Positions 10,869-47,526 of a stretch of 64,000 bases of DNA are shown here, one piece after another. The stretch comes from Agriterribacter humi (GTDB taxonomy: Bacteria > Bacteroidota > Bacteroidia > Chitinophagales > Chitinophagaceae). A program made the position numbers and the translations under genes. A model generated the notes under the pieces. That model was given only the letters and a program-made list of their open reading frames with translations. It was not told where the DNA came from and did not search any database. The DNA lies in NCBI RefSeq assembly GCF_009192765.1, contig NZ_VOHQ01000009.1, forward strand, positions 124,001-188,000. The letters run 5' to 3'. How positions within the stretch are numbered: the stretch's first letter is position 1; each line of letters starts with the position of its first letter.

Positions 10869-13247
10869 CTAAGCGCTGCAGGTTACGCAACCTTCTTCCA
10901 TACTGCACGACTGCCCCGCTGTTTCGCTTTCGTCAATCATTTGCGTGCCTGCCGCATTTACCAATGGCTCAGCCATTTTGCCTCCCTGTTTCTCTACCGT
11001 AAACTGCACGGCCTGCGAAGCAGCCTTGGTACGCAAATAATACATGCCTGTTTTTAATCCTTTTTTCCATGCATAAAAATGCATTGAGGTAAGCTTGCCG
11101 GCATTGGGGTTGTCAACAAATAGATTAAGCGATTGCGACTGGCAGATATAAGCGCCTCTTTCGGCCGCCATATCAATAATAGTACGTTGTTTGATTTCCC
11201 AAACGGTTTTATATATTTCCCTGATATGACCCGGTATTTCTTCAATTTTTTGAACAGAGCCATTGTGTATCATGATCTTGTTCTTCATATCATCGTTCCA
11301 CAAATTCAGCTCTACCAGGTCTTTCAGCAAATGTTTATTTACCACCACAAACTCCCCGCTCAAAACACGGCGTACATAAATATTAGAGGTATATGGCTCA
11401 AAGCATTCGTTATTTCCCAGTATCTGCGATGTAGATGCGGTAGGCATTGGCGCTACCAGCAAAGAATTCCTAACTCCATGTGTTATTACTTCATCTTTAA
11501 GCCGGTACCAATCCCAGCGCATCGTAGGTTCTACACCCCACATGTCAAATTGAAATACTCCTTTTGATACAGGAGAGCCGGCAAAAGTTTCATAGGGACC
11601 CTGTAGTTTAGCCAGGTCTTTACTGGCAGTCATAGCTGCGAAATAAATGGTTTCAAAAATTTCAGCGTTCAGCTTCCGGGCTTCTTCACTTTCAAACGGG
11701 AGGCGTAATAAAATAAATGTATCGGCCAGTCCCTGTACGCCCAGTCCTACGGGGCGATGCCTCATATTTGAATTCCTGGCCTCTTCCACAGGATAATAAT
11801 TATGATCTATGATCTTGTTCAGGTTTTTGGTTACCTCGTAAGTAACCTCATACAGTTTGTCGTGATCAAATACGCCGTTGTTTACGAATCGTGGTAAAGC
11901 AAGGGAGGCCAGATTACATACCGCTATTTCGTCGGGAGAAGTGAACTCCATTATTTCGGTACAAAGATTGGAACTTTTAATAGTGCCCAGGTTTTGCTGG
12001 TTCGATTTCCGGTTAGCGGCATCCTTGTACAATAAGTAAGGCGTACCGGTTTCAATCTGTGCATCCAGTAAGGCAAACCACAGGTCCTGCGCCTTCACTG
12101 TTTTTCTCCCCCTTCCTTCTTTTTCATATTGTTCATACAGATTTTCAAAGGCTTCACCCCAGCATTCATGCAGGCCCGGCGCTTCATGCGGACAGAATAA
12201 ACTCCAGTCTCCATTGGCTTCCACCCTTTTCATGAACAAATCCGGTATCCATAAGGCATAAAACAAATCTCTTGCCCGCATTTCTTCCTTGCCATGATTT
12301 TTCTTCAGATCTAAAAATTCAAATACATCTGCATGCCAGGGCTCAAGATAAATGGCGAATGCGCCTTTTCGTTTACCCCCGCCCTGGTCAACGTAACGGG
12401 CTGTATCATTAAACACACGAAGCATGGGAATAATGCCATTGCTGGTTCCGTTGGTGCCGCCAATATAGCTGCCCGTAGCGCGGATATCATGAATGGATAA
12501 TCCTATGCCACCGGCACTTTGAGAAATCTTTGCCGTTTGCTTCAGCGTATCGTAAATGCCGTCTATACTGTCTTCCTTCATCGTTAATAAAAAGCAGGAC
12601 GACATTTGCGGCTTTGGTGTTCCCGCATTAAAAAGCGTTGGCGTGGCATGCGTGAACCAGCGTTCGCTCATTAAATGATAGGTTTTGACAGCGCTTTCAA
12701 TATCATCTTTGTGTATGCCAATAGCCACACGCATATACATATGCTGCGGACGTTCCACAACCTTGCCGTCTATGCGCAGCAGGTAAGACTTCTCCAGGGT
12801 TTTAAATCCGAAATAGTCAAATCCATAATCACGGTCATAAATAATAGTAGAATCAAGCAGTTCAGCATTGTCATGAATTACTTTCCAAACATCATCGGCG
12901 AGCAAGGGGGCCGCTTTACCGGCTTTTGCATCTTTGCAGGTATACAATAACTGCATGGTATGCGAAAAACTTTTGATGGTGTTTTTATGCAGGTTGCTTA
13001 CCGCGATGCGACTGGCAAGCAATGCATAATCCGGGTGTTTTACCGTAAGTGAAGCGGCTGTTTCCGCAGCCAGGTTATCGAGCTCTGTGGTGGTAACGCC
13101 ATCGTATAATCCTTCAATCACTTTTTTTGCTACATCAATTGAATTTACAAAGCGCCTGTCTAACCCGTAGCAGAGCTTTTCAATACGGGCGGTTATTTTA
13201 TCAAATTTTACGGATTCTCTCTTTCCGTTTCGTTTTATTACCTGCAT
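10869..13247 (-). CDS. nrdA: Class Ia ribonucleoside-diphosphate reductase, alpha subunit
   Basis: The large catalytic subunit of the oxygen-dependent ribonucleotide reductase reduces NDPs to dNDPs. Its 792 residues begin with an ATP-cone domain ([16 protein letters not shown]), the site of dATP feedback. The active-site region shows SSCFLL and the NLCTEIMEF triad (Asn, Cys, Glu). The C-terminal tail EEGCVTCSA holds the redox-active CxxC that relays electrons from thioredoxin or glutaredoxin. It is the last gene of a leftward cluster nrdB, small 4-helix-bundle ORF, nrdA, and so should be under the cobalamin riboswitch upstream of nrdB unless an internal promoter exists. The 73-nt gap before it holds a GAAAAGTGAAAAGACAGAGG-type simple-sequence tract. 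Confidence 0.96.
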
Positions 13248-40469: not shown

Positions 40470-40835
40470 TTAATTAGCCTTATTGTAAATTGTCCCACCA
40501 CCTGAAGGAATTGCACTCACGTAGTGAACACTGCCGGTATATAATGAGGCAGTAATAGAAAAAGACGTGCTTAATGTGTTATCAGGATTGATAAATGATG
40601 GGTTATCAGTTACCTGCATTTCGCACGCCTTTTGATTTACATTTGTGGGACAGTTTTGCGAAGTTGTTACATATTGCCACTTACTTTTGTCTTCTACATT
40701 TGGTTTTGAATAAGGATTCGATGACGGAGGATTGTACCTAAACAGTTTGGTAGCAAATTTTTTCTCAGGCGCTTTAAAAGATATGGCTGCAAAAGCCAGT
40801 GCTATGGCAAATATGCCAAATAAATAACGTGTCAT
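40470..40835 (-). CDS. Small secreted two-cysteine protein
   Basis: A 121-residue protein with an N-terminal signal peptide (YLFGIFAIALAFAAISF) and two cysteines, Cys62 (NCPTN) and Cys71 (ACEMQ), likely to form a disulfide in the exported form. It resembles small secreted Bacteroidota proteins of the DUF6520 kind, but that assignment is tentative. It lies 43 nt downstream of a MauE-like redox membrane gene on the same strand and converges with the TlpA-SusCD operon. Its disulfide could be a target of the MauE/TlpA system. Function is unknown. Confidence 0.6.
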   Translation of the reverse strand: MTRYLFGIFAIALAFAAISFKAPEKKFATKLFRYNPPSSNPYSKPNVEDKSKWQYVTTSQNCPTNVNQKACEMQVTDNPSFINPDNTLSTSFSITASLYTGSVHYVSAIPSGGGTIYNKAN

Positions 40836-40878
40836 GATGATCGTTTTTAATTAAGAAATGGTTTTGTGTTTGAAAATT

Positions 40879-41394
40879 CTATTGTTTTTTAGGTGGAGAT
40901 TTATTCATCATTCCTTTATGTTTATTGTATAATAAAATGCTGGTTATAGAAAGAACAATCAGCGACAGGTTAAAAACGATATGCTGCCTCCACGATAACT
41001 CAGCCAATACCCCACCACAGGTACAGGGAAGTTTCGGCATATAAAGAATCATATACCCAAGATATATTGTAAAAGCTGTGATTACTGTTGCTGATACCCA
41101 CAACCCGATACGGCGAAATGCAGGTATAAACAATAGTACTGCAATAGCAAACTCAGTTACTGGCAACAGCCAGGCAATTATACCTGCTAAAGGCTTCAAT
41201 AAGACGGATTGACTCAATGTATATCGGAATTGCTCATAATCCATTAGCTTACTCCAGGCTGTATATAAAAAAACAAGTAATAACGCCCCGCATATAAAAT
41301 CAGCCGACAGTATCTGCCAGTTAATTTTTTTTCTCCACTTGTATTTGAGCGTAATTCCCACTTTTCTATTTGATAAGGTTAATAATATCTTCAA
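40879..41394 (-). CDS. MauE/DoxX-like redox membrane protein
   Basis: A 171-residue membrane protein with about four hydrophobic segments (FICGALLLVFLYTAW, IIAWLLPVTEFAIAVLLFI, SATVITAFTIYLGYMILYM, a C-terminal IVFNLSLIVLSITSILLY). A CTCGG motif (Cys124, Cys126) is typical of MauE-type proteins. MauE was first known from methylamine utilisation as a helper in disulfide formation; Bacteroidota homologues often sit next to SusCD and TlpA-like genes. Here it is upstream of the two-cysteine secreted protein. A role in passing disulfides to that protein is inference. Confidence 0.82.
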   Translation of the reverse strand: MKILLTLSNRKVGITLKYKWRKKINWQILSADFICGALLLVFLYTAWSKLMDYEQFRYTLSQSVLLKPLAGIIAWLLPVTEFAIAVLLFIPAFRRIGLWVSATVITAFTIYLGYMILYMPKLPCTCGGVLAELSWRQHIVFNLSLIVLSITSILLYNKHKGMMNKSPPKKQ

Positions 41395-42631: not shown

Positions 42632-43852
42632 TTATGATGGAGTGTTGTGAGAACGGATGCTCTTCCTGTTTGCCAGCTTTATTTTTCTTAAAGCCGAAAG
42701 CATGTCATTAAGAATTTGTTCCACTTTGTCAATAACATCAGGCGCGGATTTTGAAATACTGTTTTTAAGGTGCTCATCAGAGAACTCATCACCGGGGTTC
42801 TTTCCTACGGTTACAACATTTCTTGCCATAAATTGGGTAAGCTCACGCATGCTCTTTATGCGAAATATACCGGTTTCAATAAACAATCTGATGATCAATC
42901 CCAACTGGCTGATGGTAAGGGTAGTTACGATCTTTCGCGTATCTCTTCCATTACCGTTTCCGTTCAAAAAAAATTGTTCCTTCCATTCTCTCTTTTTAAA
43001 CTTAACAAGATCGTGGAGATTATCGCGAAGCATAGTGGAAACGGGCTCCCGTTCATGGTTCCAGGCATATCCCGCTACAGGTTTTAACCTTTCAAAGAAT
43101 TTCCCGGCACGCGAATAGCTGTAAATGGCATCTTTGCCGGCAGGCATTTTCTGAATTACCCAATTACGGCAGAATTTATAAAAGACAAGACGATTAAAGT
43201 TAAGCCTGCACAGGTTCTCTATCAGTTGCTTGGTAATATCCAAAGGATATTTCCGGTGTTTTGTACGCCCGGCCTCATGGATTATCATCTTCCCGATATC
43301 ACGCATCATATAGAGCTGGCCGTAAGTAAGCGATTCACTATCTGCATTCAGCAAAAATTCAAAGCTGTTTGTTATCAGCCTGCATAAATGAATGTCTGGC
43401 TTCAGCAGTTCCAACCCGTCATCTATAAAAGGAATCGCCGCCCGCAATTCATTTATAATCTCCTGCTGAGTTGAATATGCTGCCGGGACATCCATTCGCA
43501 TATCTTCGGCAAAATGAACTTCTACTATTTTCAACAGGGAGTGTATTTGGCACAAGGCCTCATTATACAACGGCCATGTGGCGTTTGCTGTAAGTCTGCG
43601 TTTATGCATCAGCATATACTGATGCAGCCTGCCGGTTATGTCAAGCAAATGCATTTGATGGTAGCGGATATACCGTCTCCGCATTGCTTCGGAATAATTG
43701 CAAAAAAGTACGGAAAGTAATTTTTGTTCGGCCTGCGTACGCTCCTGTTTCATTTGGGCTATCAGCGGCTGCAAAACATTCGTCTCCGGTTTATCGTTGT
43801 CGTCAAGCAACTTCAAAATGATGTTTTCTATGCGTGATAATTCATATTGCAT
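42632..43852 (-). CDS. Conserved-looking helical protein of unknown function
   Basis: About 406 residues, almost wholly helical by residue pattern, with no signal peptide or membrane segment. A C-terminal block (TTLTISQLGLIIRLFIETG, then MRELTQFMARNV) resembles the C-termini of uncharacterised Bacteroidota proteins found near mobile-element genes, but I cannot assign a family. It is not a clear RteC. ATG 43852 (MQYELSRIE) is chosen over an upstream candidate because the N-terminal helix starts there. It diverges from the peptide/acyltransferase locus across 330 bp, so shared regulation is possible. Confidence 0.6.
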   Translation of the reverse strand: MQYELSRIENIILKLLDDNDKPETNVLQPLIAQMKQERTQAEQKLLSVLFCNYSEAMRRRYIRYHQMHLLDITGRLHQYMLMHKRRLTANATWPLYNEALCQIHSLLKIVEVHFAEDMRMDVPAAYSTQQEIINELRAAIPFIDDGLELLKPDIHLCRLITNSFEFLLNADSESLTYGQLYMMRDIGKMIIHEAGRTKHRKYPLDITKQLIENLCRLNFNRLVFYKFCRNWVIQKMPAGKDAIYSYSRAGKFFERLKPVAGYAWNHEREPVSTMLRDNLHDLVKFKKREWKEQFFLNGNGNGRDTRKIVTTLTISQLGLIIRLFIETGIFRIKSMRELTQFMARNVVTVGKNPGDEFSDEHLKNSISKSAPDVIDKVEQILNDMLSALRKIKLANRKSIRSHNTPS

Positions 43853-44183
43853 ACGGTAAGCTTTATTATCAAAATTAATTGTGCAGCCACCCAAAGAAAT
43901 ACCGGCTACTTATATACGTCACTTTAATGTGCTTGCTGATATATACAATAAGGTAGTTGGTATAAAATATTTTTGGGAATGATAAGCCGGGTAAGCCTTT
44001 GCCAGGCCATCCTTAACCACGGCAACCTTCAGCACCCTCTGCACGGCAATACACCATTTCGTATAGTGCAAAACATTTTTTGCATAACAGTTTTTCCCGC
44101 TCTCCAGATTAAAATGAGGTTTGAGGTGTAAACAACACAGTTGAATCGTAAACCATATTGTAAACACATTAAACTGCCGCATC
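43853..44183. promoter_or_regulatory. Divergent promoter region with GTAAAC direct repeats before peptide gene
   Basis: No gene. Three GTAAAC direct repeats occur at 44128, 44148 and 44160, just before the peptide ATG (44184). The 20-bp spacing between the first two is close to the two-turn spacing of LytTR-type binding sites. A LytTR response regulator is encoded 2.6 kb downstream. Binding is inference. Confidence 0.4.
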
Positions 44184-44330
44184 ATGAACAAAAGTGAAAG
44201 CATCTTCGGTATTTCTTTCAGTATTGAGGAAGTTAAAGACATGTTTAAGAACACAAGCTCAGCTATATATGAATTGCTGAGCGGGGAATCCTGTATTGTT
44301 GTTACTCCGCCCTTACCGCCGGGAACGTAA
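44184..44330 (+). CDS. Small peptide gene, candidate RiPP-like precursor
   Basis: A 48-codon ORF with ATG 44184 and TAA 44328-44330. The N-terminal 34 residues look like a leader: charged, with an amphipathic helix SIEEVKDMFKNTSSAIYELL ending at a Ser-Gly pair (residues 33-34). The C-terminal part (residues 35-48) holds one Cys (37), a hydrophobic VVT run and a PPLPPGT end, i.e. a core-like tail with four prolines. It is followed after about 31 nt by an intrinsic terminator and then by an acyltransferase gene with an RRE-like domain. That layout (abundant short precursor transcript, reduced read-through to the enzyme) is typical of RiPP loci. A longer frame on the opposite strand lacks family features. 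Coding potential is inferred, not proven. Confidence 0.6.
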   Translation: MNKSESIFGISFSIEEVKDMFKNTSSAIYELLSGESCIVVTPPLPPGT

Positions 44331-44361
44331 TTGCAATACCGCATTGAGGTTTTGTTTCACC

Positions 44362-44388
44362 AGGAATCTTTAACAGGATTCCTTTTTT
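44362..44388 (+). terminator. Intrinsic terminator/attenuator between peptide gene and acyltransferase
   Basis: AGGAATC (44362-44368) pairs with GATTCCT (44377-44383) around an 8-nt loop, followed by five more T. It sits between the peptide stop and the acyltransferase start, so most transcripts could end after the peptide. Confidence 0.8.
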
Positions 44389-44474
44389 GCGGGTGAGCAC
44401 CTGTTTACCTGGCGTTTTCGATTTGGACTTATTGCATATGCTTCCACTTTCTCAGTGATTTTAAAATAACCTGT

Positions 44475-45614
44475 ATGAAGAACAAAGAATACCTGGCAAA
44501 AAGAGATGAACTGGTTTCTTTTTTTTCCGGGGACAACCATTTAAAAGATGATGAAAAGCTGGGCATCCAGTTCAATCTTGTAAGTGCCAGCCTGCTTAAC
44601 TACCTGCCCGAAATAGCGTTTCCCCATCATGAGGATATTTATAAAAACATTTTGCTTCATCAGCATCTCAGCAGGCTTGAAGAATCATTTTATGGTGCGC
44701 TGGATTATGTAACCTGCGAAAACTTAAACAAGGATATACGATCGGTGCTGCGATATAAGCCTTCTATTATCTGTACTTTTCATACCGGCTCGTACCGGGT
44801 AATTAATCTGTGGTTAACCAAACATAATATCCCGTACGTGCTGGTTATTGCCAGAAACGTGATTGCCGCCCAGGGCGACCGCTTTTTGCAATCTTATAAC
44901 CAACTGCCAGGTTCACATAAAGCGCATTCATTTTCATGGATTGATGCCGAATCGCCATCGTCGGGGCTAAAAATGTTACGCGAAATTAAAAACGGTAAAA
45001 ATCTCTTACTGTACATAGATGGCAATACAGGCTCTGGCAGTAATACAATGAGTAATCACAATCATTTGACAATTGATTTCTTCGCCCGCCAGATCTTTGC
45101 AAGGAAAGGCATTGCGCTCCTGGCGCATATTGCACATTCGCCCATTATAACCGTGGCTTCCTACCGGAAATCCATAGCCGATATAAGACTTCGTTTCTTT
45201 GATCCGCTTTTTCCTGACGCAAAACAGGAGCGGGCCGCTTTTGCAAAGGCAACCACTCAAAAAATATACAATATGGTTGCGCCCATAATAAAGGCCCACC
45301 CCCACCAATGGGAAGGCTGGATGTACCTGCATAAATCGGCCCGTATCACTGTCACTGATGAAAAATTAGCCGGTAGCGCAAACATGAAACCAGTTGCCTG
45401 TGAGCGTGTATTATTCAATTCTGCAGGATTTGGTATATTTAAGATAGAGGATAATGCATTTTTATTCCAGAAAAACAATTACAGGTTTTATCCTGTTAAT
45501 AAATCCTTGTATCATTTATTGTCTGGCTGCATGTTGCAACCCGTGAGCAGAAAAAATATTGAGTCCGGCTTATTTTCCCTGTTATACGCAAAAAAAGTGC
45601 TGGTGAGCGTTTAA
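44475..45614 (+). CDS. LpxL-like acyltransferase with C-terminal PqqD/RRE-like domain
   Basis: A 379-residue protein. Residues about 1-290 match the lipid A/lauroyl acyltransferase (LpxL/HtrB) fold: TFHTGSYRVINLWL (101-114), LLLYIDGNTGSGSN (177-190), FFARQIFARKGI (202-213) and the C-terminal PHQWEGWMYLHKSAR (276-290). The family HX4(D/E) motif is altered: His103 is kept but position 108 is Arg. Residues about 305-379 are an added domain that looks like PqqD, the RiPP recognition element: IFKIEDNAFLFQ, FYPVNKSLYHLLSG, then a helix IESGLFSLLYAKKVL. This suggests an acyltransferase that recognises a leader peptide, here perhaps the product of the preceding 48-codon gene. It lacks the N-terminal membrane anchor usual in LpxL. 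The acyl donor and acceptor are unknown. Confidence 0.65.
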   Translation: MKNKEYLAKRDELVSFFSGDNHLKDDEKLGIQFNLVSASLLNYLPEIAFPHHEDIYKNILLHQHLSRLEESFYGALDYVTCENLNKDIRSVLRYKPSIICTFHTGSYRVINLWLTKHNIPYVLVIARNVIAAQGDRFLQSYNQLPGSHKAHSFSWIDAESPSSGLKMLREIKNGKNLLLYIDGNTGSGSNTMSNHNHLTIDFFARQIFARKGIALLAHIAHSPIITVASYRKSIADIRLRFFDPLFPDAKQERAAFAKATTQKIYNMVAPIIKAHPHQWEGWMYLHKSARITVTDEKLAGSANMKPVACERVLFNSAGFGIFKIEDNAFLFQKNNYRFYPVNKSLYHLLSGCMLQPVSRKNIESGLFSLLYAKKVLVSV

Positions 45615-45650
45615 CAGCCTGTAAAGCAATTTATATGCAAACGATAGTTT

Positions 45651-46766
45651 ATGCATCTATTTTTCAAATCGGGATATAAGAAAATACATCCTGCTGTTAT
45701 TCATACCTGCGCCTGGATAGCTTATACCGGTTATATTTATATTGCCAATTACCTGTCTAACCCGAAGTTGAGGATAATTGATACCATCACATTTCTTATT
45801 CCCTATTATATTACTTTTTATGTAGTGCTTTATTTCCTTAACCTCTTTAAAAACAGGGGCCTTGCCTGGAGCATTGCGTCTTTTTTTATTGTTTTTGTGT
45901 TAATGTCGGTGTTCGGCTATTGCTTTATTTACTGGCTTTTGCCGTTAATGGGTTTAAAGCTTTACAAAACAGGGGATTTCCTTCTTTTCCTGCAGGCGGC
46001 TGTATTGGGATATGTGCAGTTCTTCACCTATGCCATGCTCTATTTTTATTTTTATAAAACCATCAGGAAGGAACGCGAATTACGAAAACTGGAAGAGGAA
46101 AAATCAAAGCTCGAACAACAGAAAATACAGAAGGAACTGGAAAATGCAATATTGAAACAACAGGAGCTAAAGGCAAAACAGGAAAAGCTGGAGTTTGAAT
46201 ATGCTTTCCTGCGATCCCAGATCAACCCTCATTTTCTGCACAATACGCTGAACATTCTCTTCTCGCAGGCAATGAAAGTATCGCCCGACCTGGCCGATAA
46301 TATCGGGAAACTGAGCGACATGATGCGTTATTCAATGGAAAGCATGGAATACAAAAGCGGCGTTGTCTCCGTTCAAAAAGAATTAGACAACCTGCAAACT
46401 CTGATAGAGATCAATAATATGCGCTTTGCCCAAGCGCATGCTGTAGACTATTGCGTGGAAGGCGAAGTGCAGGGACAGCTTGTGCCCCCGCTTTGTATGA
46501 TAACGATTGTTGAAAATGCCTTTAAATACGGTGATAGTAAAGATGCTGCCCACCCCGTTCAGATAAAAGTGAAGCTGCGTACAGGACAGGTTTATTTTTT
46601 TTGTCGCAATAAAAAAAAGAAAAATAATATCGAGCTTTCCTCCCATAGCATAGGAATAACCAACCTCACTAAGCGCCTTGATGCTGTATTTAAGGACAGG
46701 TACAGGATTGAAACAACCGATGAAGAAATGTTTTATACTTTCGAGTTAACCATAAACACCACCTGA
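45651..46766 (+). CDS. LytS/AgrC-like membrane histidine kinase
   Basis: A 371-residue sensor kinase of the His_kinase (LytS/YehU) family. Four hydrophobic segments fill residues 14-136, followed by a coiled coil (140-185) and the phosphoacceptor motif QINPHFLHNTLN with His194. An ATPase region follows, with VENAFKYG and SIGITNLTKRLD. There is no large periplasmic domain, so the signal is probably sensed in or near the membrane, as suits a hydrophobic or lipidated peptide. It begins 36 nt after the acyltransferase stop and its stop is 1 nt from the next ATG, so it is operonic with the response regulator. Confidence 0.92.
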   Translation: MHLFFKSGYKKIHPAVIHTCAWIAYTGYIYIANYLSNPKLRIIDTITFLIPYYITFYVVLYFLNLFKNRGLAWSIASFFIVFVLMSVFGYCFIYWLLPLMGLKLYKTGDFLLFLQAAVLGYVQFFTYAMLYFYFYKTIRKERELRKLEEEKSKLEQQKIQKELENAILKQQELKAKQEKLEFEYAFLRSQINPHFLHNTLNILFSQAMKVSPDLADNIGKLSDMMRYSMESMEYKSGVVSVQKELDNLQTLIEINNMRFAQAHAVDYCVEGEVQGQLVPPLCMITIVENAFKYGDSKDAAHPVQIKVKLRTGQVYFFCRNKKKKNNIELSSHSIGITNLTKRLDAVFKDRYRIETTDEEMFYTFELTINTT

Positions 46767-46767
46767 T

Positions 46768-47526
46768 ATGATTAAATGTGTAGTAGTAGATGATGAATTA
46801 CCGGCTATTGATGTACTGGCAACCTATATCAACCAATTGCCCGGCATTGAACTGGCGGGGACTGCCACAAATCCTTTGGAAGGAATTGAAATCATTAAGC
46901 AAACGCATCCTGATGTAGTGTTTTTGGACGTTCAGATGCAGGAGATGAACGGACTTGAATTGATGCAGCTTCTTGACAAAGAAACACTCGTTGTATTTTG
47001 CACCGCCTATTCGGAATTTGCAATAAAGAGTTATGACCTCCGCGCCGTGGATTACCTGATGAAACCTATTCGCTTACCGCGCTTTATGCAAGCCATTGAG
47101 CGTGTAGCTGATATGATGTCAGCCAAATCAACCATCGTGCCGGAAGCGATCCCGGATGATTATCTTTTTGTAAAAACAGAGCATAAAGGGAAGATGATAA
47201 AAATTGACATGCAGGATATTGATTTCGTAGAGGCGTTACGTAACTACGTGGCATTTTACAGGGGAAAACAGAAAACACTGGCTTATATTTCCATGAAAGA
47301 ACTGGAAAACCGTTTACCCAAAAGCCAGTTCGTCCGTGTGCACAAATCCTTTATTGTGGCAATAAAACAGGTCAGCTCTATGGAATACAGCGAACTTATA
47401 CTGAAGAATACTTCAAGGCATATCCCGATCGGTAATAATTACAAAGCCCTGTTTATGGATCTGTTAAAAGATAAGTTGCTTTTTTGGGGAACGGTTGCAA
47501 GCATAATGTGCGAAGGGACCGGGTAG
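46768..47526 (+). CDS. LytTR-family response regulator
   Basis: A 252-residue response regulator with a receiver domain (phosphoacceptor Asp54 in VVFLDVQMQEM, the CTAYSEFAIKSYDLRAVDYLMKP stretch with the conserved Thr/Ser and Lys) and a LytTR DNA-binding domain (KTEHKGKMIKIDMQDIDFVE, RNYVAFY, FVRVHKSFIVA). It pairs with the kinase encoded one base upstream. LytTR regulators often control peptide or bacteriocin loci and act on spaced direct repeats; GTAAAC repeats lie upstream of the peptide gene. Confidence 0.93.
   Translation: MIKCVVVDDELPAIDVLATYINQLPGIELAGTATNPLEGIEIIKQTHPDVVFLDVQMQEMNGLELMQLLDKETLVVFCTAYSEFAIKSYDLRAVDYLMKPIRLPRFMQAIERVADMMSAKSTIVPEAIPDDYLFVKTEHKGKMIKIDMQDIDFVEALRNYVAFYRGKQKTLAYISMKELENRLPKSQFVRVHKSFIVAIKQVSSMEYSELILKNTSRHIPIGNNYKALFMDLLKDKLLFWGTVASIMCEGTG

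Follow-up and report, generated by a model that had tools for sequence, protein, structure and literature searches.

Does the row of a small peptide gene, an acyltransferase-like gene and a two-component system found in Agriterribacter humi constitute a peptide signalling circuit, and does it belong to any known type? The locus lies within a stretch of 64,000 nucleotides (positions 124,001 to 188,000 of contig NZ_VOHQ01000009.1, hereafter the window), and an initial annotation had proposed that the peptide is acylated after leader recognition, released and sensed at the membrane, closing an autoregulated loop.

Organization of the cassette

All parts of the row described by the initial annotation, i.e., the peptide gene, a terminator, an LpxL-like acyltransferase (AT), a LytS-type kinase and a LytTR regulator, were confirmed on the + strand between 44184 and 47526. 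Together with the elements upstream, the locus contains:

44057..44088, + strand: LytTR-type direct repeat, TTTCGTATAGT-N10-TTTTGCATAAC, 21-bp spacing (motif model over 18 loci)
44114..44123, + strand: ATGAGGTTTG, of which GTTTG is aligned in several relatives
44184..44330, + strand: precursor peptide gene (48 aa), with a leader-like half and a Cys followed by 11 residues
44362..44388, + strand: terminator-like hairpin with T-run, between the peptide and AT genes
44475..45614, + strand: AT gene, encoding an LPLAT/LpxL-fold protein with an HX4R motif (H103-R108) and an RRE-like C-terminal domain
45378..45611, + strand: RRE-like domain (AT residues 302–379; model and Foldseek)
45651..46766, + strand: LytS-type membrane histidine kinase gene (PF06580, E 6e-19; hydropathy)
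46768..47526, + strand: LytTR response regulator gene (PF04397 LytTR, 5.6e-20; PF00072 Response_reg, 1.1e-19)

The consensus of the Bacteroidota –7 element is TAnnTTTG, and we take ATGAGGTTTG to resemble such an element. With regard to the kinase, which had been described as a four-helix protein, a hydropathy scan revealed three clear membrane segments (residues 42–67, 69–105 and 110–132), but the fourth was less clear and could stem either from the long second segment (69–105) or from a weak stretch near residues 15–34. The Pfam scan of the cassette genes assigned no family to the peptide, and neither an exporter nor a protease gene was found in the window's cassette. A search against a defence library yielded no match for the AT, and its weak matches to the kinase (1.3e-4) and the peptide (7e-3) were taken as chance. 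The cassette is adjoined by a 420-aa ORF on the – strand (42632–43894), for which neither Pfam nor NCBIfam gave a significant match (lowest E-value 0.1, in Pfam).

Conservation of the precursor peptide

Small ORFs situated upstream of the AT gene, or upstream of an M50 gene where one is present, were found to have in common a core centred on S-C or C-C and, ahead of it, a leader of the form IF....[IL]S[IL]..LE.R. An HMM of 12 peptides from other loci recovered the window's peptide from 1,831 six-frame segments at an E-value of 1.1e-9 (runner-up 0.27), and an HMM of 13 peptides, run over 34,687 segments, returned six loci outside its training set at E < 1e-3 (L034, L036, its near twin L037, L039, L040 and L044), each time with the peptide directly upstream of an AT or M50 gene. 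Most AT homologues are accompanied by an adjacent small peptide ORF, in line with what the initial annotation had expected of them, and the precursor gene adjoins that of the presumed maturase, as in RiPP systems with an RRE. Pooled pN/pS values of the peptide were 0.16 in Sphingobacterium (n = 8), 0.33 in Larkinella (n = 5), 0.50 in Runella with Rhabdobacter (n = 4) and 0.47 in Ferruginibacter (n = 3, two of which have an identical peptide). It is very probable that the peptide and the AT represent a RiPP-type precursor and its maturase.

Tandem precursors occur in Riemerella (two) and in one Flavobacteriaceae strain (three). The ATs of Larkinella, Runella and Rhabdobacter (L058–L064, L066–L075) come without a kinase and with a conserved precursor of 58–67 aa, which has a variable stretch before its CC/SC core and lies upstream of the AT, L062 and L065 excepted. 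A terminator-like hairpin follows the peptide gene at 24 of 43 loci (vs. 6.3% in shuffles), i.e., in 19/22 Chitinophagaceae/Weeksellaceae rows and in 5/21 rows elsewhere.

Distribution of the gene set

The window's own genome has a single AT copy, and the AT was found in 16 of 394 genomes of the same family. Within the genus, one other genome carries an AT (37% identity) and seven are listed without one, and genome G051 harbours two copies that are 49% and 38% identical to that of the window. At the 17 family loci, the kinase gene is located behind the AT in 15 and the regulator gene is present in 14, with differing flanks. The named scan comprised 63 loci from several Bacteroidota families and one gammaproteobacterial MAG; the AT was readable in 62, with an adjacent kinase in 39 and both kinase and regulator in 36. 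At some of the 23 loci without an adjacent kinase (e.g., L034) it is missing because the contig ends there. Since 14 named loci duplicate family loci, the 79 ATs in total amount to 65 distinct ones.

Sets of AT, kinase and regulator, with a small peptide ORF upstream and with differing flanks, were present in Chitinophagaceae, Weeksellaceae and Sphingobacteriaceae, and no such kinase was found when the short flanking regions of the 22 LpxL-like loci from the phylum scan (14 of them confirmed as HX4E) were inspected. On the AT tree, three changes suffice to explain the kinase label (shuffled mean 19.7), and AT identity follows kinase identity with an r of 0.88 over 38 loci, a correlation that shared descent alone could produce. 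No AT relatives were found in plasmids and IMG/VR. A distant relative with HX4Y is encoded at L033 (9812–10840) in a different operon without kinase, and is perhaps part of a different peptide system.

An RRE-like domain at the C-terminus of the AT

The C-terminal domain of the AT had been claimed to have a PqqD/RRE shape. When this domain was modelled alone (pLDDT 92.5), the top six Foldseek matches were TbiB1 with leader (four times), TigE and the PbtF RRE, at a best E-value of 0.089 and none of them significant; ThcOx, the McbBCD complex, MccB and a sactipeptide enzyme appeared lower, amid unrelated proteins. TigE and CteB are RRE-carrying proteins. The predicted fold is RRE-like, which supports the claim as far as shape is concerned, but no RRE was found by sequence via Pfam, a PDB profile search or profile comparison. 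Judging from the model, we regard the domain as quite probably an RRE.

Loss of this domain maps to one change on the AT tree (support 83/88). In Sphingobacterium and Parapedobacter, whose ATs are without the domain, the peptides lack the LE.R leader as well. A clear connection between the two losses did not emerge, because the Olivibacter peptides (L065, L076), again from loci without the domain, keep LSL..F-like stretches, and because in Larkinella and Runella the domain is combined with a leader of another type.

The catalytic motif of the AT

The model of the AT (pLDDT 83.5) matched PatA (E 1.3e-11) and LpxM (1.4e-10), and its sequence scored 20.9 bits against Pfam Lip_A_acyltrans, below the cut-off of 22.3 that was passed by all four AT relatives scanned. 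His103, Gly105, Asp182, Trp279 and Trp282 are invariant in 65/65 ATs. The His of the catalytic motif is thus kept, but the acid of HX4E, present in 14/14 readable canonical relatives, is replaced by Arg (Arg108) in 63 of the 65, by Met in one and by Tyr in another, which speaks against the acyl transfer that had been proposed and means that the AT family falls outside the HX4D/E motif of LpxL lipid A acyltransferases. The Arg might point towards either a different chemistry or an easier acceptor such as a thiol, and we consider acyl transfer to Cys about as likely as not.

A cysteine at a fixed position in the clade without the domain

In 17 Sphingobacteriaceae ATs the C-terminal domain is absent or reduced to a degenerate piece, as judged by eye from the alignment. 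Among the 42 upstream ORFs examined, a Cys exactly sixth from the ORF end was found at 16 of these 17 loci, vs. 2 of 68 control genes at the same loci and 11 of 264 across all loci, under an exact-position rule that was fixed after the peptides had been seen. Eight of the 17 loci belong to closely related Sphingobacterium and two Olivibacter loci are near-identical, and when each of these groups is taken once the count becomes 8/9 lineages. The residues after the Cys vary (FFRTI/F, DIEIL, DFVVP, EYWDL, DPWIF, EHIYL, DNFII and WFDGL), with L092, where seven residues follow, as the exception. Where the C-terminal domain and a kinase are both present, the stretch after the Cys is 3 to 15 residues long (11 in the window).

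Some cores have Thr or Ser instead of Cys (L024 and L046, both with kinase, L044 and the three L078 peptides). Either the modified residue is a nucleophile in general, or these cores count against Cys being the target. A looser test, i.e., any Cys within the last 20 residues, was positive at 56/64 AT loci vs. 146/264 control genes and 191/405 control ORFs, and was replaced by the exact-position test because it was weak and non-discriminating. The fixed Cys position in the clade without the domain, followed by a variable tail, is new here; the initial annotation mentioned neither a Cys close to the C-terminus nor the M50 protease and arginase contexts nor the existence of this clade.

RiPP-type contexts in relatives

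The M50 proteins of L024 and L028 matched the NCBIfam daptide (6e-27 and 1e-26, respectively) and YydH/LiaK (4e-11 and 1e-16) models below their curated cut-offs, and further M50 genes precede the AT in Filimonas, Riemerella, Bergeyella, Polaribacter and more (home-made HMM). An arginase-family protein adjoins the AT in Neolewinella (PF00491, 1e-53), and a similar arginase-like protein was seen by eye beside the AT of a Cyclobacteriaceae MAG. An ATP-grasp-like gene follows the AT in Hymenobacter (MvdD pre-ATP-grasp, at an E-value of only 0.18) and, by eye, in Neolewinella. At L070 (5383–7915) and L095 (5436–7819), AT relatives adjoin M50 and arginase-like genes as well as tandem precursors containing Arg and Cys, the products of which are possibly ornithine-containing, lipidated RiPPs.

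A direct repeat in the peptide promoter

The best direct repeat upstream of the peptide gene at 18 Chitinophagaceae-type loci was of the form TTTCACATAAC-N10-TTTCACATAAC, often with GTTTG on its 3′ side. Its distance to the peptide start was 105–135 bp at 17 of these loci and 211 bp at L046. The motif model, seeded by eye from a generic repeat scan, reached a leave-one-out mean of 15.5 vs. 6.0 for base-shuffled sequences under the same procedure (highest of 30 shuffles: 7.7), and did better than the generic 9-mer repeat scan (7.2 vs. 6.6 in shuffles). The window's repeat had a leave-one-out score of 17.7, and 5/18 promoters scored 10.4 or less; among 121 other upstream regions, 10 reached the lowest trained score and 2.5% the leave-one-out median. 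The presence of this LytTR-type repeat ahead of the peptide gene lends support to the initial annotation's claim of autoregulation.

When a 16-locus model was run over 445,032 bases from 26 sources, 21 sites of at least 16.5 were obtained, vs. 0 in 110,715 shuffled bases. Thirteen of these were situated at cassettes (12 in the training set) and eight elsewhere, i.e., four before secreted/lipoprotein genes, one before a MauE gene (L038) and three without a clear target. The four secreted proteins or lipoproteins are, in L040, one that is thioredoxin-like and one of 273 aa whose hydrophobic end is Cys-rich, in L048 a lipoprotein of 154 aa, and in Terrimonas ferruginea a lipoprotein of 241 aa with a Cys-rich end; the labels "bacteriocin-like" and "thioredoxin-like" were given by eye, with no significant Pfam match. 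A site of lower score (15.1) accompanies a LanC gene in Filimonas zeae.

Behind the strong direct repeat and thioredoxin-like gene of L040, a Gly/Ala-rich ORF with Cys at both ends (11840–12030) is followed by a small membrane protein, a pair that by eye looks like a bacteriocin and its immunity protein. Both the window (40470–41394, – strand) and L038 (11496–12450, + strand) have, not far from the cassette and near SusC/SusD genes, a MauE gene accompanied by one for a small protein that is DUF6520-like or secreted; the MauE locus repeat scores 23.9 in L038, and the window has no site of 13 or more there. Across the 5.69-Mb genome, the zero-mismatch repeat pattern, written after the site had been seen, matched the window site only. 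No own-genome regulon emerged when up to two mismatches were allowed (62 matches vs. 93 for the reversed pattern), nor did six near matches inspected by eye reveal a convincing cassette-type promoter.

A working model and its alternatives

A conserved gene set, a conserved peptide, an RRE-like predicted fold and a conserved promoter repeat are apparent at the level of sequence. With moderate confidence, we read the locus as an autoinducing modified-peptide signalling cassette whose logic resembles that of comQXPA or agr while being a member of neither, a reading that partly supports the interpretation in the initial annotation. The precursor leader would bind the RRE-like domain, as its fold suggests, after which the LPLAT domain would act on a residue close to the C-terminal end, the likeliest modification being a fatty acyl chain placed on the Cys (Thr/Ser in some relatives). 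The leader would then be removed, by the M50/YydH-like protease in some relatives and by some other protease in the case of the window, and the short modified C-terminal peptide would exit the cell. The adjacent membrane kinase, which likely senses this product, would phosphorylate the LytTR regulator, and the latter might bind the 21-bp direct repeat and raise transcription of the peptide gene, with the terminator holding peptide transcripts in excess over those of the enzyme. More tentatively, the product may be an S-acyl-cysteine ribosomal lipopeptide pheromone, made by an RRE-guided LPLAT-fold maturase whose motif has changed for thiol acylation, sensed by the LytS-type kinase and switching on bacteriocin-like genes in some species.

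The same cassette might instead yield an agr-like cyclic signal, with the AT closing a thiolactone, lactone or other ring from Cys/Thr to the C-terminus. The constant distance of five residues between Cys and C-terminus in the clade without the domain and the departure of HX4R from acyltransferases are in keeping with this, but the distance ranges from 3 to 15 residues at loci with the domain, and the LPLAT fold is not known for ATP-dependent carboxylate activation; we find a ring unlikely. Equally improbable in our estimation is a mainly antimicrobial lipopeptide or RiPP, whose production or immunity would be autoinduced by the two-component system as for nisin. Kinase-less AT relatives do cluster with M50, arginase or ATP-grasp-like genes, and repeats adjoin possible bacteriocin genes in relatives, but the conserved set is without an immunity or transporter gene, and the tails vary among close relatives as in pheromones.

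It is very improbable that the small ORF merely attenuates an envelope-modifying AT and two-component system without giving rise to a peptide product. The AT is indeed an LpxL homologue and the terminator follows the ORF in most Chitinophagaceae/Weeksellaceae rows (19/22), but the peptide sequence is conserved even where no terminator was found (16/21 other rows), and both the RRE-like domain and the M50 and arginase contexts argue against such a role.

Comparison with known systems

The cassette stands outside comQXPA, agr, the GNAT-lipidated RiPPs and LpxL, because for each of them a defining feature was looked for and not found. In Bacillus, comQXPA comprises a precursor (of the ComX pheromone), the prenyltransferase ComQ, a membrane kinase and a NarL-type regulator, with a Trp near the C-terminus being modified. 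The cassette shares this part order and logic of precursor, lipid-moving enzyme, membrane kinase and regulator and, as proposed, the position of the modified residue near the C-terminus, but it has an LPLAT-fold AT with RRE-like domain instead of ComQ (Pfam revealed no ComQ-type polyprenyl synthetase among the cassette genes), a Cys instead of a Trp, and a LytTR instead of a NarL-type regulator. In agrBDCA, the membrane protease/cyclase AgrB, a C-terminal piece with Cys and a LytTR regulator are combined with an autoregulated promoter containing direct repeats. The short C-terminal Cys piece, membrane kinase, LytTR regulator and direct-repeat autoregulated promoter recur here, but the cassette holds no AgrB gene, its kinase matches PF06580, and the Cys-sixth clade is without a tail after the core. 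The variable residues after a fixed-position Cys in that clade are reminiscent of both ComX and agr. Both are Gram-positive systems in which a peptide pheromone comes with its own modifying enzyme.

LpxL, LpxM and PatA have the fold and the conserved His in common with the AT, which differs from them by HX4R, DGN for DQ, the RRE-like domain and the adjoining peptide gene. As in the YydH/LiaK and daptide systems, a related M50 protein lies beside the peptide in some relatives (not in the window), but its scores are below the curated cut-offs, and neither an epipeptide radical SAM nor a daptide enzyme was noted next to it.

GNAT-lipidated RiPPs, i.e., selidamides, nostolysamides and lipolanthines, carry acyl groups on amine acceptors (PMC13060382). 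The presumed acyl transfer to a ribosomal peptide is shared, but the AT has no GNAT match and an LPLAT fold, and the proposed acceptor is a thiol. DAG-RiPPs combine the lipoprotein pathway, a signal peptide and an MNIO enzyme (PMC12636315); the cassette resembles them in that a ribosomal peptide from Bacteroidota has a conserved Cys and, as proposed, a lipid. Pfam revealed no MNIO gene in the cassette, and no signal peptide was seen by eye in the 48 aa.

A review of two-component quorum sensing (PMC8895600) names AHLs, AI-2, DPO and the like, all of them small molecules, as the signals of Gram-negatives, and states that Bacteroidetes have homologues of some peptide-sensing kinases and regulators. 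Neither an LPLAT/LpxL-type RiPP enzyme nor, for Bacteroidota, a peptide pheromone coupled to a LytTR pair was found in the literature covered (subscription journals largely outside). If the S-acyl-cysteine reading is true, the cassette would represent a new RiPP class together with peptide quorum sensing in Bacteroidota, and would extend the RiPP-lipidating enzymes by an LPLAT-fold enzyme with RRE-like domain. As a portable four-gene cassette in three Bacteroidota families, it would give this phylum a peptide language with lineage-specific tails.
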